From Janibacter terrae NBRC 107853 (GTDB taxonomy: Bacteria > Actinomycetota > Actinomycetes > Actinomycetales > Dermatophilaceae): a stretch of 64,000 bases of DNA. The stretch spans positions 1,302,001-1,366,000 of the forward strand of contig NZ_BCUV01000007.1 of NCBI RefSeq assembly GCF_001591405.1. The letters are read 5' to 3'. This document shows, piece by piece, positions 48,982 through 55,163 of the stretch. The translations under genes were made by a program, and so were the position numbers. The notes beneath the pieces are model-generated. The model saw nothing but the letters and a program-made list of their open reading frames with translations. It was not told the DNA's origin and did not search any database. The number at the start of each line of letters is the position of its first letter. The stretch's first letter is position 1.

Positions 48982-50853
48982 TCAGAAGGCCGACTCCGGC
49001 ACGTCCATGAGGCTGTTGTCCGTCGCCTCGGCGATGGCCCTCTCGGAGGCCAGGCGCGGCAGGACGTTCTTGGCGAAGAAGCTCGCCGCGGCGATCTTGC
49101 CCGTGTAGAAGTCCTTGTCCTTGCCCTCCGCGCCGGCCTCGAGGGCCTCGGTGGCAACGGCGGCCTGACGCAGCAGCAGCCAGCCGACGACCAGGTCGCC
49201 CGCGCCGAGGAGCAGGCGGGAGGTGTTCTGGCCGACCTTGTAGATGTTGGTGATGTCCGAGCCCTCCTGCTTGGGGTCGGAGGCCATGAGCGCCTGGAAC
49301 ATCGCGCCGAGGATGCCCTGGACGTTTTCCAGGCCCTGGCCGAGCAGCTCGCGCTCGTGCTTGAGCGCACCGCCCTGCGCGTCGACGTCCTGGGCGAACT
49401 CCTGGATCTGCATCGCGAGGTGACCCAGCGCCTGGCCGTTGTCACGCACGATCTTGCGGAAGAAGAAGTCCTGACCCTGGATGGCCGTGGTGCCCTCGTA
49501 GAGGGTGTCGATCTTCGCGTCGCGGACGTACTGCTCGATCGGGTACTCCTGCAGGAAGCCGGAGCCACCGAAGGTCTGCAGCGACTCGGTGCCGAGGAGG
49601 GTCCAGGCCCGCTCGGAGCCCAGGCCCTTGACGATCGGCAGCAGCAGGTCGTTGACCCGGTTGGCCATCGCGGCGGGGGAGTCGTCGGCGATCTCCTCGA
49701 CGCCCGTCGCGAGCTGCTCGACGTCGACGGTGTCCTGCTGGCTCGACGTGAGCGTGACGAGCGCCCGCAGGCCCTCGGCGTAGGCCTTCTGCAGCATGAG
49801 GCTGCGGCGCACGTCCGGGTGGTGGGTGATCGTCACACGCGGCGCGTCCTTGGCGGGCGTCGTCAGGTCGGCGCCCTGGACGCGCTCCTTGGCGTACTCG
49901 AGCGCGTTGAGGTAGCCGGTGGAGAGGGTGGCGATGGCCTTGGTGCCGACCATCATCCGGGCGTTCTCGATGACGCGGAACATCTGGGCGATGCCGTCGT
50001 GGACGTCGCCGAAGAGGGTGCCGACGGCGGCGTGCTTCTCGCCGAAGGTCACCTCGCAGGTCGTCGAGACCTTCAGGCCCATCTTCTTCTCGACGTTGGT
50101 GACGTAGACGCCGTTGCGCTCGCCCAACTCGCCGGTCTCGAGGTCGACGGCGTACTTGGTGAGGATGAAGAGGCTCAGGCCCTTGGTGCCCGGGCCGGCG
50201 CCCTCGGGGCGGGCGAGGACGAAGTGGACGACGTTGTCGGTCATGTCCGACTCGGCCGAGGTGATGAAGCGCTTGACGCCCTCGATGTTCCACGTGCCGT
50301 CGCCGTTGTCGGTGGCCTTGGTCCGCCCGGCGCCGACGTCCGAGCCGGCGTCGGGCTCGGTGAGCACCATGGTGCAGTGCCAGCCCTTCTCGGCAATCCA
50401 CTTCGCGAGCTTCTTCTGCTCGTCGGTGCCGAGCAGGTAGAGCAGCTTGGCGAAGGAGTAGCTCGCGCCGAACATGCCGATGGCCGGGTTGGCGCCGAGG
50501 ACGAGCTCGTTCATCGCCCAGCGCAGCGACGGGGGAGCGACGGTGCCGTCGAGCTCCTCGGGCAGGTCGAGCGACCAGAAGCCAGCGTCCTGGAAGGCCT
50601 TGTACGACTTCTTGAAGGACTCGGGCATCGCCACGGACGAGGTCTCGGGGTCGAAGACCGGGGGGTTGCGGTCGGCGTCGGCGAAGGACTCGGCGAGCTC
50701 GTTCTCGGCCAGACGCGCGTACTCCTTGAGCATCTCGCGCGCGGTGTCGGCGTCGACCGCCTCGTAGGGGCCCTGGCCCAGGACCTCGTCGCGACCGAAG
50801 ACCTCGAAGAGGTTGAACTCGATGTCGCGCAGGTTGCTCTTGTAGTGACCCAT
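48982..50853 (-). CDS. FadE5-type acyl-CoA dehydrogenase
   Basis: A 623-residue flavoprotein, longer than ordinary acyl-CoA dehydrogenases and of the FadE5/ACAD10-like C-terminal-extended class. Motifs are [29 protein letters not shown], and the active-site region [16 protein letters not shown]. It oxidises acyl-CoAs of broad chain length in beta-oxidation. ATG 50853 follows AGGAG. A GTAAGC/GCTTAC palindrome 31-46 bp upstream is a candidate operator for a TetR-type fatty-acid regulator. Confidence 0.9.
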
Positions 50854-50955: not shown

Positions 50956-50984
50956 GTGACCTGACGCACACGAACGGGTAGCGT
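50956..50984 (+). promoter_or_regulatory. Candidate promoter of the mauE-like operon
   Basis: GTGACC at 50956-50961 and TAGCGT at 50979-50984 are separated by 17 bp, giving a start about 30 bp before the MauE-like ATG. Confidence 0.4.
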
Positions 50985-51018: not shown

Positions 51019-51555
51019 ATGTTCGTCTGGGCGTGGGCCGGTCCGACCTTCCTGGCCGCGGGGGCCCTGCTCGTCCTCGCCGGCCTGCCCAAGGTCCTCG
51101 ACCCGGGTGACCTCGTGCGCGCGCTGCGCTCCGTCGGGGCGCGGGTGCCCCCCTTCGTCGTCCGTGGGTTCGCCGCGGCCGAGGTGGTCGCCGGCGCGGC
51201 CGCCCTCGTCCTGCCCGGACGGTGGAGCGCGCTCGCCGTGGCCCTCCTGCACGCCGGCTTCACCGGGTTCGTCCTCCTCGCCCTGGCGAAGGGGGGAGTG
51301 CTCGCCTCGTGCGGGTGCTTCGGTCGGGCGGACACGCCCCCGACCCGCAGCCACGCCCTCGTCACCGGGCTGCTCGCGCTCGCCGCGCTCGCGGTCGCGG
51401 TGGCCCCGCCCGCCGCCCCGTGGTGGGGTGCGGACATCGGCGGGCTCGCCGTGACTGTGGTGCTCGCCGGGCTCGTCGGCTTCCTCGCCTGGCAGGTCAT
51501 CGCCGTCCTGCCCACCACGACCGCTGCCGCGATCCGCTCGACCCGGAAGGCCTGA
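51019..51555 (+). CDS. MauE/DoxX-family redox-associated membrane protein
   Basis: A 178-residue protein with four or five membrane helices. A conserved Cys pair sits in the loop ASCGCFGR (Cys98, Cys100), the motif seen in MauE-type proteins, which help form disulfides in exported cysteine-rich proteins. It begins a six-gene operon. GAGGGGG at a good distance supports ATG 51019; an upstream in-frame ATG at 50983 lacks a ribosome site. Confidence 0.75.
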   Translation: MFVWAWAGPTFLAAGALLVLAGLPKVLDPGDLVRALRSVGARVPPFVVRGFAAAEVVAGAAALVLPGRWSALAVALLHAGFTGFVLLALAKGGVLASCGCFGRADTPPTRSHALVTGLLALAALAVAVAPPAAPWWGADIGGLAVTVVLAGLVGFLAWQVIAVLPTTTAAAIRSTRKA

Positions 51556-51559
51556 CCCC

Positions 51560-52351
51560 GTGAACCCGCTCCTGCTCACCCTCGTCATCGGCGAGCTCGT
51601 CGTCCTCGTGCTCCTGTCGGTGCTCGTCCTCGGGCTCCTGCGCAGCCACGCGCTCATCCTCAAGTCGCTCCACGACCTCGGCGCCGGCCTCGAGCTGGAC
51701 CGCGCCGCGGAGGCGGCCACCGGCTCGCCCGGGCCCGTCCCCGTCGAGCTCGAGACGGGGGTCGTCGCGCGGGGCCGCGCCGACGGTGCCGGGGTGCCCG
51801 AGCTCGTCGGGACGCGGCTGGGTGGCGGCGACGAGCGTCGCGAGGACCTCTCCGGGCGCACCCTGCTCGCCTTCCTCACGACCGGGTGCAGCGTGTGCGC
51901 GAGCTTCTGGACCGAGTTCCGGCAGCCGGTCGACGTCCCGGGCGGCGGCCGCTTGCTCGTCGTGACGAAGGGGGACGACGAGGAGTCCCCGTCCGCCCTC
52001 GCCAAGGTCGCCCCGCCCCACCTCGACCTCGTGCGCTCCAGCACCGCGTGGGGCGACTTCGAGATCCCGGGCAGCCCGTACTTCGTCTACGTCGAGGGTG
52101 GACGCGTGCTCGGGGAGGGCTCCGCGACGACGTGGGCCCAGGTGAGCGACCTCATGGCCCAGGCCGTGGCGGACGACGAGCAGCGGGCGGGTGCGAACGA
52201 GGATTTCGTCGACCGGGGCGACCGGGACCACCCGGCGTCGGTCGACGCCGAGCTGCTGGCGGCCGGGATCGGCCCGGACCACCCGAGCCTGCGGCCGGAG
52301 CCGCTGCCGGGGCGCGGGGGCGAGCCGGGGCGGGGCGCCGACCCCAGATGA
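51560..52351 (+). CDS. MauD-like membrane-anchored thioredoxin-fold protein
   Basis: A 263-residue protein. One N-terminal helix (VIGELVVLVLLSVLVLGLL) anchors an extracytoplasmic thioredoxin-like domain with the redox pair Cys110-x-x-Cys113 in TTGCSVCASFW, and the cis-Pro-type loop GSPYFVYV. MauD serves disulfide formation in the methylamine dehydrogenase light chain. The C-terminal ~45 residues are charged and disordered. GTG 51560 lies four bases after the mauE stop. Confidence 0.72.
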   Translation: MNPLLLTLVIGELVVLVLLSVLVLGLLRSHALILKSLHDLGAGLELDRAAEAATGSPGPVPVELETGVVARGRADGAGVPELVGTRLGGGDERREDLSGRTLLAFLTTGCSVCASFWTEFRQPVDVPGGGRLLVVTKGDDEESPSALAKVAPPHLDLVRSSTAWGDFEIPGSPYFVYVEGGRVLGEGSATTWAQVSDLMAQAVADDEQRAGANEDFVDRGDRDHPASVDAELLAAGIGPDHPSLRPEPLPGRGGEPGRGADPR

Positions 52352-52428
52352 CGCCCGTCCTCCTCGGGCTGGTGCTCGGCGTGCCGGTGGCGGTCGTCGC
52401 CGCCATCCGCGCCACGTGGTCGCCTTGA
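52348..52428 (+). CDS. 26-residue single-helix peptide
   Basis: ATG 52348 overlaps the MauD-like stop (ATGA). The peptide MTPVLLGLVLGVPVAVVAAI and six more residues is one hydrophobic helix with a basic/aromatic end (RATWSP). It is too short to assign but sits in register in a tightly packed operon, so it may be a real membrane microprotein. It could be chance. Confidence 0.35.
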   Translation: MTPVLLGLVLGVPVAVVAAIRATWSP

Positions 52429-52437
52429 GGCGAGTCG

Positions 52438-53037
52438 ATGCTCTCGAGCATCACCCCGCTCGGTGAGCGGGGACGTGGAGCGAGCTGGACGCGCACGGCC
52501 GCGGCGTACCTCGTGGGCTCGGTGCTCGCGGCCGGCCTCGTGGGAGCGCTGCTGGGCCTCGTGGGCTCCCTCGTGCCCGACGGCGTGCGGGGGTCGGCGC
52601 CGGTGCTCGGCGGGTTCGCGCTGCTGCTGGTCGTGGGGCTCGTGCTCGACGTGCGCTCGGGTGGGCACGGCGTGCCCTCGTGGCGGCGGCAGGTCGAGCG
52701 CGAGTGGATCGGGCGCTACCGCGGCTGGGTGACCGGGCTGGGATTCGGCGTGCAGCTCGGGCTGGGCTTCGTCACGATCATCACGAGCACGACGACCTAC
52801 GCCGTCTTCCTCGCCGAGCTCCTCGCCGGGCGGTGGTGGGCCGGCGCGCTCATCGGGCTCGTCTTCGGGCTCGTGCGCTCGCTCCCGCTCGCGCTGGTGC
52901 GCCGCGTGGACTCGCCGCAGGACCTGCACGACGTCTTCGGCGTACTCGGCCGCTGGGAGGCCCCGGCCGCTAGGGTGGCGTGGACCACACTGACCCTGGC
53001 CGCGCTGCTGTGCGCCGGCACGGCGGTCGGAGTCTGA
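52438..53037 (+). CDS. Cysteine-free polytopic membrane protein, CcdA/DsbD-like in outline
   Basis: A 199-residue protein with about six helices. The order (SSITPLGERGRG, then helices, GLGFGVQLGLGFVTIITSTT, GALIGLVFGLVRSLPLAL) resembles the CcdA/DsbD transmembrane fold, but the catalytic cysteines are absent. In mau operons a membrane protein (MauF) is required beside MauE and MauD, and this may be its functional counterpart; that is inference. A GATGCTC/GAGCATC inverted repeat spans its start codon and could affect translation. Confidence 0.55.
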   Translation: MLSSITPLGERGRGASWTRTAAAYLVGSVLAAGLVGALLGLVGSLVPDGVRGSAPVLGGFALLLVVGLVLDVRSGGHGVPSWRRQVEREWIGRYRGWVTGLGFGVQLGLGFVTIITSTTTYAVFLAELLAGRWWAGALIGLVFGLVRSLPLALVRRVDSPQDLHDVFGVLGRWEAPAARVAWTTLTLAALLCAGTAVGV

Positions 53038-53052
53038 AGGGGAGCGCATCAC

Positions 53053-53538
53053 ATGGCAGTGACGATCTCGGCGCAGGTGCCCACGGGGTGGCACGTGCGG
53101 GTGCGACGGCGGCCGCAGGTGCCCCTGCGCTCAGCGACATCGGGGGCCGGTGACCACACCCGCCCGATCCTCCACGCGGCCTCGCGGCCGCTCCCGACCG
53201 ATCTCGGGGACTTCGGGGGCGAGCTCATCGACGTCCTCGGCCCGGACGACGGCTTCGTCGCGCTCATCGACCACGGTCCGGAGGTCGCGGGGACGGGGCT
53301 CTTCGCCCGGCAGGGTCGCCCGGTCGTCTCGCCCTCGCAGTTCGCCGCCAACCGGCTGGCCAGGTACGTGCCCGGCCGCAGCGCCGGCCAGTGGTTCTTC
53401 AGCGAAGGGGGTCACGGCTTCTGCCTCTACGCCGTCACCGGGGCGCACTCGCGCCGGATGGCGGTCGTGCCGCGCATCGCGCGGGTCGTCGCCGGCATCA
53501 GGGTCTCCGGGGCCGGGGCCGTGGAAGGGGTCCGATGA
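53053..53538 (+). CDS. Unknown 161-residue protein of the mauE-like operon
   Basis: I do not recognise this protein. It has no signal peptide or membrane helix, only one cysteine, and a mixed alpha/beta appearance (LIDVLGPDDGFVALIDHGPE, FAANRLARYVPGRSAGQWFF). AAGGGGAG precedes ATG 53053. Its stop overlaps the start of the cysteine-rich gene by 4 bp, so the two are translated together. It may act in the cytoplasm as a chaperone or export aid for that protein. Confidence 0.5.
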   Translation: MAVTISAQVPTGWHVRVRRRPQVPLRSATSGAGDHTRPILHAASRPLPTDLGDFGGELIDVLGPDDGFVALIDHGPEVAGTGLFARQGRPVVSPSQFAANRLARYVPGRSAGQWFFSEGGHGFCLYAVTGAHSRRMAVVPRIARVVAGIRVSGAGAVEGVR

Positions 53539-54911
53539 GCAGGGGGTCGTGGACCGCGCGCCTCGTCGACTCGATCGCCGGACGCCTGCCGGAGGTGTCC
53601 CGGCGCGACGTCCTCGTCGGCTCCGCGGTCGCCGGGTCGGCCCTCGTCGTCGACCCCAAGGCCTACGCCCTTCGCCCCGTCTCGGCCTACGCGACCGTCT
53701 GCGGCCCCGGCAGCACGGCCTCCTCCGGCTGGACGGTCTTCTGCGCGACGATCAACAAGGGGGCGAACGCCTGCCCGCCCGGCAGCTTCGCGGCCGGCTG
53801 GTGGAAGGCCGCCGGCTCCTCGTGGTGCGGCGGCAGGTACCGGTACATCGTCGACTGCAACGCGACCTGCTCGCGGTGCACCACCGGCTGCCGGGACCAC
53901 ATCTGTGACTCCCGCTGCTGGTCCTGCAGCTGCGGCACCGGCTCGAGCGCGACGTGCGACCAGCGCCGGATCTGCTGCAACGCCTTCCGCTACGGGCAGT
54001 GCAACACGCACGTCTCGTGCAGCGGCGGCGTCCACTGCCGCGTCGTCAGCTGCACGCCGCCCTATCAGTGGGAGAACTGCACGACGACCTCCCTCGTCGA
54101 CAACCGCACCTCCGAGCACTCGACCTCGCTCCTGCCCAAGTGGGGTGCGATCTCCTCGCGGTACTACGCCATGGGGGAGCAGCGCTCCCACCTCGGCCAC
54201 TCCATGGGTCCCGTGCGCTCCGTCGGGGACGGTGTCGGCACCTACGTGCGGTACTCGAACGGTCGCATCTACCACTCGACCCGGGTCAAGCGGGCGATTC
54301 CGATCCGCAAGGGCGTCGTGGACGTGCTCGTCTCCCAGGGCTCGGTCAAGGGGCGCCTCGGCTACCCGTCGGGCCTGGAGTACCTCTCGAAGTCCGGGGG
54401 ACTGACCCAGCGGTTCGAGAAGGGCGCGGTCGCCGGACCCTCGCTCGGCACGCTCTACGCGGTGTACGCCGGGGCCTGGACGATCTGGGAGGACACCGGC
54501 CGCACCTCGGGCGAGCTGGGCTACCCGACGTCCAACCGCAGGACGGTCTCGTCCGGGTGGGTGCAGCACTTCCAGCGCGGCGCGATCAGCCAGCGTGGCA
54601 GCGCCCGGGGGGTGCACGTCTCCGGCGAGTTCGCCAGGGCCTGGCGCCGGCACGGCGCGGAGAGCGGCGTGCTCGTGCTGCCCGTGGCCGTCGCGGCCAA
54701 GACCCTGCGCGGCAGCCGCCAACGTTTCGCCGGCGGCCAGCTCTGGCGCCTGGGATCGGGCACGCCTCGCCTCGTCACCACCGCGATGCTCGACGCGTGG
54801 GTGGCGAAGGGGGGACACTCCGGCCCCTACGGCTACCCGACCTCCGACACGACCCGCCGCTCCGATGGTCGGTGGTCGTGCACCTTCGAGGGCGGGACGA
54901 TCGTCATCTGA
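53535..54911 (+). CDS. Tat-exported cysteine-rich MauA-like protein with LGFP repeats
   Basis: A 458-residue protein. A twin-arginine signal (VSRRDVLVGSAVAGSALVV, residues 21-39) is followed by a domain with 20 cysteines between 56 and 182. CPPGSFAAGWW (80-90) and YRYIVDC (102-108) resemble the methylamine dehydrogenase light chain (MauA) around its first cofactor tryptophan. Other Trps lie at 66, 97, 129 and 179. From about 230 there are LGFP-type repeats (GRLGYPSG, GELGYPTS, GPYGYPTS), which associate with the envelope in Actinobacteria. No amine dehydrogenase heavy chain or MauG is nearby. Function unknown. Confidence 0.65.
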   Translation: MSRGSWTARLVDSIAGRLPEVSRRDVLVGSAVAGSALVVDPKAYALRPVSAYATVCGPGSTASSGWTVFCATINKGANACPPGSFAAGWWKAAGSSWCGGRYRYIVDCNATCSRCTTGCRDHICDSRCWSCSCGTGSSATCDQRRICCNAFRYGQCNTHVSCSGGVHCRVVSCTPPYQWENCTTTSLVDNRTSEHSTSLLPKWGAISSRYYAMGEQRSHLGHSMGPVRSVGDGVGTYVRYSNGRIYHSTRVKRAIPIRKGVVDVLVSQGSVKGRLGYPSGLEYLSKSGGLTQRFEKGAVAGPSLGTLYAVYAGAWTIWEDTGRTSGELGYPTSNRRTVSSGWVQHFQRGAISQRGSARGVHVSGEFARAWRRHGAESGVLVLPVAVAAKTLRGSRQRFAGGQLWRLGSGTPRLVTTAMLDAWVAKGGHSGPYGYPTSDTTRRSDGRWSCTFEGGTIVI

Positions 54912-55045: not shown

Positions 55046-55116
55046 GCCGGTGTAGCTCAATGGTAGAGCGCCAGCTTCCCAAGCTGGACACGCGGGTTCG
55101 ATTCCCGTCACCGGCT
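55046..55116 (+). tRNA. tRNA-Gly (anticodon CCC)
   Basis: A 71-nt cloverleaf. The acceptor arm GCCGGTG pairs with CACCGGC, the D-arm is GCTC...GAGC, the anticodon stem CCAGC/GCTGG encloses TTCCCAA (anticodon CCC), and the T-arm is CGGGTTCGATTCCCG. The discriminator base is T, as usual for glycine. CCA is not encoded. A pyrimidine-rich tract follows, compatible with termination. Confidence 0.95.
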
Positions 55117-55163
55117 CTCTTCTCTCTCTTTTCTCCTGTCCTGCGACGGCTAACCTGACCCCC

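Follow-up and report, generated by a model that had tools for sequence, protein, structure and literature searches.

We analyse here a window of 64,000 nucleotides (nt) from Janibacter terrae NBRC 107853 (NCBI RefSeq assembly GCF_001591405.1, contig NZ_BCUV01000007.1, positions 1,302,001 to 1,366,000 of the forward strand), in which positions 51019-54911 of the plus strand hold five tightly packed genes: three resemble the MauE, MauD and MauF genes of methylamine dehydrogenase (mau) clusters, and two more we call U and A. The MauF-type gene contains an in-frame TGA codon, which we predict to encode selenocysteine (Sec). A reading made earlier from the sequence alone had counted six tightly packed genes; the tight packing stands, with ATGA start/stop overlaps at the MauD/MauF and U/A boundaries, but the genes number five, one of them having been split in two. 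The features are listed below, with positions counted from the first letter of the window.

51019-51555, plus strand: MauE/DoxX-type membrane protein with a CGCFG motif (alternative GTG start at 50983)
51560-52351, plus strand: MauD-type thioredoxin-like protein with an N-terminal membrane anchor and the motif CSVC
52348-53037, plus strand: Sec-MauF, a MauF-type membrane protein of 229 residues if the TGA is read through as selenocysteine (predicted)
52426-52428, plus strand: the TGA codon, predicted selenocysteine at residue 27, where MauF has its conserved cysteine
52454-52472, plus strand: hairpin resembling a selenocysteine insertion sequence (SECIS), CCCCGCTC-GGT-GAGCGGGG, whose loop starts 33 nt 3' of the TGA
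53053-53538, plus strand: U, a conserved 161-residue protein without a predicted membrane segment or known family
53535-54911, plus strand: A, a cysteine-rich protein with a twin-arginine translocation (Tat) signal and LGFP repeats, the presumed substrate
53700-54080, plus strand: the cysteine-rich domain of A, residues 56-182, with 20 cysteines

The operon and its MauF gene, earlier read as two

Two of these products are as the sequence-only reading had described them. The MauE-like membrane protein with CGCFG matches PF07291 at 55.4 bits (cut-off 27). The MauD-like protein, described as a thioredoxin with a CxxC motif, has a membrane anchor and a thioredoxin-like domain with CSVC, by which, together with its sequence homology, we class it as MauD; taken alone, it has no Pfam thioredoxin match. 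U, put down as a cytosolic protein of unknown kind, reaches a maximum 19-residue hydropathy of only 1.18, with no predicted membrane segment, and matches neither Pfam nor NCBIfam at E up to 1, nor MauJ.

The same reading had placed two further genes between MauD and U, one for a 26-residue helix peptide and one for a cysteine-free membrane protein, and neither is a gene in its own right. That is, the 26-codon ‘peptide’ (52348-52428) and the membrane protein (52438-53037) share a single frame with one TGA between them, so that the junction reads TWSP-[TGA]-GESMLSSI, and the supposedly cysteine-free part holds one cysteine near its end. Profiles of the part past the TGA match the MauF proteins of three mau clusters, with E from 1.5e-19 to 2.2e-14, and these proteins read TWSPC-GYSS(IS), with cysteine at the place of the TGA. 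Where the aligned MauF proteins read WSPC the operon reads WSP-TGA, so that the TGA stands for the conserved MauF cysteine. The two pieces form a single MauF homologue. In Pfam, the part past the TGA reaches 25.0 bits for DsbD_2 (cut-off 24.9) and the read-through form 24.2, which is below the cut-off.

The operon is real, and it is widespread in Actinomycetota. Across 52 loci and the window, A, E (MauE), D (MauD), M (MauF) and U occur all together in 48 of 53, a co-occurrence that exceeds chance, in a sample of loci picked for having A, several of which are contig fragments and a few near-duplicates. Thus, the proposal that neighbourhoods be compared across relatives has been followed, and MauE- and MauD-type genes, together with U and MauF, do recur with A; the six gene pieces of the sequence-only reading were already found together again in the first 26 loci. 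Gene order differs among loci (in L026, for example, E precedes A and the remaining genes follow A), and three loci (L022, L071, L073) have no M beside the operon or are fragments. Apart from sel genes and what local synteny explains, clustering of the neighbours revealed no conserved partner gene outside the operon. Genes of the A type occur in 7 of 58 near relatives (the present genome counted), 18 of 248 genomes of the order and 31 of 396 genomes drawn from the phylum, as well as in 28 of 66 and 51 of 247 genomes of two other classes; among the named relatives of A are some from Janibacter genomes, with 87% and 70% identity over the best segment.

The TGA codon and the selenocysteine machinery

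Fifty of the sampled loci have M, and the TGA breaks the frame at all 47 junctions that can be read, two of the others being fused or masked at the junction (L069, L082) and one cut (L081). A set of 70 distinct junctions was collected with a pattern that demands a stop after WSP or WSA, under which TAA or TAG would have shown. None was seen: all 70 have TGA, preceded in every case by WSP and followed by G..(M/L), with GES in 61. Because the pattern demands a stop, cysteine forms cannot occur in this set, and because TGA stops are common here (all five genes of the operon end in TGA), TGA-only junctions are weak evidence when taken alone.

A search with a read-through profile, in which stops were counted, is open to both forms. 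Applied to 396 genomes, it produced 71 matches, spread over 69 of them. A TGA is present in 54 of the matches, TAA or TAG in none, and the other 17 are free of stops. Of these 17, eight were read and have cysteine, eight fall short of the site, and one weak match (G269) was left unread. All eight stop-free relatives that were read (L069; L190-L196) carry TGC at the site. Thus the in-frame UGA aligns with cysteine in homologues, namely these eight relatives and the three MauF proteins, as is expected of a selenoprotein. One genome (G155; L195, L206) has both a cysteine-form and a TGA-form MauF gene, and it has selA. Two genomes that lack selA (L190 in G427, L191 in G189) carry a cysteine-form MauF apart from the operon, in 8-kb stretches that contain no match to E, D or A, and in one further genome a MauF match contains two TGA codons instead of one (G212:C247:1916-2575).

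The machinery for selenocysteine follows the TGA form. We find selA in 57 of 59 TGA-form genomes and in none of seven with cysteine forms only (Fisher p = 4.6e-8, uncorrected for kinship); 55 of the 57 lie above the curated cut-off, and the two below it are a fragment and a split gene. Since selA is also present in 33 of 46 genomes without A, the machinery does not imply the operon. Among 26 operon-bearing genomes, a tRNA-Sec of at least 56 bits is found in 23 of 23 with the TGA form and 0 of 3 with the cysteine form, where the 56-bit line was set after the scores had been seen, because other tRNAs score up to about 50. The present genome has the full set of a selenoprotein-making genome: selA (394.7 bits), selD (390.8 bits), selC (a tRNA-Sec with anticodon tca) and selB, the last with a score slightly below its cut-off. 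These genes lie outside the window (L174:5927-18001), where selA, selB, tRNA-Sec and selD adjoin a formate dehydrogenase operon. Of the 42 fetched loci that span at least 12 kb, nine include selA, and these represent three separate groups: seven belong to a single Micrococcales family group and two, L068 and L070, to other classes; in four of these selA-linked loci tRNA-Sec is present as well.

A selenocysteine codon in bacteria is expected to be followed by a hairpin. The published model of the bacterial element (bSECIS), as given in PMC13188914, has a stem of 4-16 base pairs (bp), a loop of 3-9 nt with G at its first two places, a distance of 16-37 nt from the UGA, and a folding energy of -7.5 kcal/mol or lower. 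The hairpin in the window, with an 8-bp stem, the loop GGT, a spacing of 33 nt and -14.8 kcal/mol, lies within all of these bounds. Rfam reports no SECIS or other family above cut-off in the stretch. Using a perfect-stem version of the model for all counts, we find that 64 of the 70 junctions conform, whereas among ordinary TGA stops taken from these operons 44 of 229 do. Conserving the amino acids while redrawing the codons provides a second comparison: of 1400 synonymous recodings of these stretches, 505 conform, again to be set against 64 of 70 real ones. The junctions fall into two classes, with a perfect hairpin with a GGN loop starting 33 nt past the TGA in the first and 29 nt in the second. 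Among the 47 members of the first class, 21 have C-G at the outer pair (28-46) and 18 have G-C, and pairing is present in 412 of 517 cells, which 0 of 2000 shuffles attain (maximum 405); the amino acids at the paired sites (Ser-Ala or Thr-Gly) vary together.

The cysteine-rich protein A

The sequence-only reading had described A as a Tat-exported, cysteine-rich protein, and we agree: its Tat signal matches TIGR01409 at 18.4 bits (cut-off 16.7), and 20 of its 21 cysteines lie within residues 56-182. Its C-terminal half holds five LGFP stretches (PF08310, 80.3 bits), which were overlooked earlier. LGFP repeats bind the cell wall. An LGFP tail occurs in 20 of 23 members. Of 27 further members with a tail, 9 have LGFP and 4 have CWB2, and a ricin-type lectin and various other domains are each found in one; 9 of 69 A members have no tail. 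The putative wall-binding part of A is thus, on its domain make-up, exchangeable. The cysteine-rich domain itself is held more strictly. After 14 of 142 domain hits had been dropped (FRYGNC/FRYGRC variants or cut genes) and identical domains merged, 88 remained; adding six distinct variants gave an alignment of 94 relatives, in which the same 12 cysteine columns are invariant. A search of plasmids with the domain gave no match. In one genome (L152/L153, G803), the A gene consists of two overlapping matches in different frames, likely a frameshift or an assembly error.

It is important to ask whether A is a form of MauA, the methylamine dehydrogenase (MADH) light chain, as the sequence-only reading had suggested. 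The check proposed with PF02975 speaks against it, with no match at E up to 1 in 23 A members. In profile-profile comparison A first appeared to be a MauA homologue (P = 93), but with the Tat signal removed P falls to 4.9 against MauA, and the candidate was rejected. The Tat-less profile gives P = 21.1 against MauA plus the small proteins of Thermomicrobium (described below) and 7.3 against the latter alone. The joint score of 25.75 exceeds 100 of 100 column shuffles (maximum 19.8), and the score against MauA alone, 20.9, is below the shuffle maxima of 23.3, or 28.1 with the cysteine columns kept. Because the profile score collapses without the Tat signal and the MauA-alone score lies within the shuffles, we do not class A as MauA.

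The comparison of predicted structures, likewise proposed earlier, was carried out. A fold of A from 24 sequences was poor (predicted local distance difference test score, pLDDT, 44.1) and had no structural match; a fold of a shorter relative (L034) from 94 sequences was good, while the extra loop of the window's domain was modelled poorly. Foldseek returned 53 matches at E up to 10 and none at 0.001, and 8 MADH or aralkylamine dehydrogenase (AADH) chains are among the 50 matches listed.

No MauB heavy chain or MauG had been seen in the sequence-only reading, and this agrees with our searches. With custom profiles of MauB and MauG, the window gives no match at E 0.01. This test is not very sensitive: the MauE-like gene, recognised by Pfam, escaped a five-sequence custom MauE profile in the same search. 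For MauG, CCP_MauG (PF03150) has no match in the whole genome while matching 2 of 14 control genomes. The genome-wide searches with PF06433 (heavy chain) and PF02975 found nothing, but as neither matched any control genome they carry little information, and we do not take them as evidence of absence.

We might still imagine that A is itself a quinone enzyme, in which the invariant tryptophan pair of the GWW motif and aspartate of DCN would bear a MADH-like, tryptophan-derived cofactor matured with the assistance of selenium. GWW would likely supply the first tryptophan of a tryptophan tryptophylquinone (TTQ). The naive slot of the second is occupied by tryptophan in 8 of 88 sequences, in a region where the alignment is uncertain. 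We consider a quinone enzyme unlikely.

The reading of the TGA and a proposed maturation route

There are two ways of reading the TGA other than as selenocysteine. The codon may be a true stop, in which case a 26-residue helix and a 199-residue protein would be made separately by coupled translation and then assemble. Each part alone is an open frame, in most members an ATG comes three codons past the TGA, and the operon's genes all end in this same codon. But the three codons before the ATG are as conserved as the rest (GGN in 70 of 70, TCG or TCC in 70 of 70) and the frame is kept at all junctions read; one member (L052) has CTG in place of the ATG. Moreover, eight relatives are fused, with cysteine at the site, selA tracks the TGA form, and the conservation of the hairpin exceeds what the protein needs. 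A split MauF is, therefore, improbable. That the TGA is read as tryptophan, or through plain leakage, would suit the free use of TGA in high-GC genomes, but is scarcely credible when TGA serves as the stop of genes in this operon, the relatives carry cysteine and not tryptophan, and the link with selA, tRNA-Sec and the SECIS-like hairpin would go unexplained.

Several observations weigh against selenocysteine, too. The second class of junctions (n = 22) keeps the hairpin but has no covariation above shuffles (159 of 220 cells; 536 of 2000 shuffles attain it), six of the 70 junctions fail the bSECIS model, and the Thermomicrobium gene gave no hairpin with a GG loop. Among distant relatives, TGA at the cysteine site itself was read in only four Actinomycetota loci (L202, L203, L204, L209) and in Thermomicrobium, and genomes as GC-rich as these often use TGA as a stop. 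Two TGA-form genomes have no selA, in assemblies that are 68% and 73% complete, and SelB of the present genome, at 235.2 bits, is just below the curated cut-off of 242.25. Taking both sides together, we infer that the UGA in MauF is very probably decoded as selenocysteine. We assign a probability of roughly 0.8 to the reading of the operon as a disulfide-maturation line that is dedicated to a single exported protein and has a selenoprotein as its MauF.

How might such a line work? DsbB and the DsbD/DsbC pair offer the analogy for the maturation of A, and CcdA has an SPC motif. A would be exported by Tat, perhaps with the help of U. MauE and MauD would then oxidise its cysteines, as suggested by the functions ascribed to Mau proteins and by the DsbB analogy. 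MauF would be a DsbD/CcdA-like carrier whose reactive cysteine has been swapped for a faster, more oxidation-tolerant selenocysteine; by exchanging electrons with MauD, it would allow wrong bonds among the 9-10 disulfides to be reshuffled, as in DsbD/DsbC. The direction in which MauF would pass electrons is our guess, drawn from its DsbD/CcdA-like family, for which DsbD_2 is matched just above the cut-off. The matured domain might finally be held in the wall via LGFP or another binding module. The earlier proposal that a Mau pathway is reused here for a different envelope protein is supported in part: a MauE/MauD/MauF set stands beside an exported A, which we do not class as MauA.

Among the closest known systems is the mau cluster of Paracoccus and Methylobacterium (mauFBEDACJG..., for example NC_008688 and CP029174), which likewise has MauF, MauE, MauD and a small, Tat-signalled, cysteine-rich protein. 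In contrast to it, the present operon was found to have no mauB, amicyanin gene, mauJ or mauG, has the extra gene U, carries TGA in place of the MauF cysteine, and fuses its substrate to wall-binding repeats instead of encoding a PF02975 protein. AADH clusters (aromatic amine dehydrogenase; for example LT969519) share the order MauE-MauD-light chain, but they include genes for a heavy chain and for cytochromes, and the stretches fetched have no annotated MauF. In Streptomyces, decRiPPter clusters place MauE and MauD beside cysteine-rich precursors and were also proposed to serve another cysteine-rich product, in that case a ribosomally synthesized and post-translationally modified peptide (RiPP); the excerpted text names no MauF, selenium, Tat-exported LGFP protein or operon of this kind, and it speculates that MauE forms disulfides in the dehydrogenase small subunit, calling the role of MauD unclear (PMC7794033).

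A plasmid of Thermomicrobium roseum (NC_011961), from another phylum, has MauE, a MauD-like protein and a TGA-holding MauF near five MauA-like open reading frames (ORFs). At this locus (L132:13878-27133), the five ORFs stand amid larger, propeller-looking hypothetical proteins, possible partners, and are followed by a MauE fusion, the MauD-like gene and the MauF-like gene with TGA, which public annotation gives as a hypothetical protein starting past the TGA; the small proteins are matched by the MauA profile and have retained a Trp-Cys like that of MADH. Genomes without A (L192, L197-L209) have Tat-signalled cysteine-rich proteins unlike A beside MauE-, MauD- and MauF-type genes, where MauF is of the cysteine form in L192 and TGA-holding elsewhere; the protein of L209 has a MADH-like Trp-Cys end and matches the MauA profile at 4.5e-15. 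Because unlike cysteine-rich proteins adjoin MauF-type genes both in these genomes and in Thermomicrobium, Sec-MauF looks like a tool shared by several substrates.

Known prokaryotic selenoproteins share with Sec-MauF an in-frame TGA at a redox cysteine, a SECIS-like hairpin and cysteine-form relatives, according to PMC13188914, whose table of 119 families and subfamilies includes those of PMC12013261 (Haft and Tolstoy 2025). MauF, MauE and CcdA are all absent from this table, in which TsoB, a rhodanese/DsbD-fusion-like protein containing two Sec residues, comes closest by name. NCBIfam has no match for Sec-MauF, and our literature searches found no paper on a MauF selenoprotein. We thus predict Sec-MauF to be a new selenoprotein family within a variant of the Mau maturation set.

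A broader claim, which we favour with less assurance, is that the MauF type constitutes a new, phylum-wide selenoprotein family, the core of an unrecognised selenium-dependent route by which aerobic Actinomycetota, and bacteria of at least one further phylum, make disulfide-rich surface proteins. This route would serve several substrates, all cysteine-rich and exported by Tat but unlike one another, with methylamine dehydrogenase as one specialised case, and it would help to explain why the selenocysteine machinery, operon-linked in some genomes, has been retained. Should the selenocysteine reading hold, a membrane family would join the list of selenoproteins, with selenocysteine at the electron-transfer site of a DsbD-like carrier in extracellular folding; MauE, MauD and MauF would form a general maturation kit, beyond methylamine use; genes now annotated in two pieces would gain their proper form; and the cysteine-rich wall protein should depend on selenium, save in lineages that have gone back to cysteine.

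The operon's neighbours in the window are a tRNA-Gly (ccc) at 55046-55117, directly downstream of A, and, upstream, a long open frame on the minus strand (48982-50853) that points away from the operon and looks by eye like an acyl-CoA dehydrogenase.

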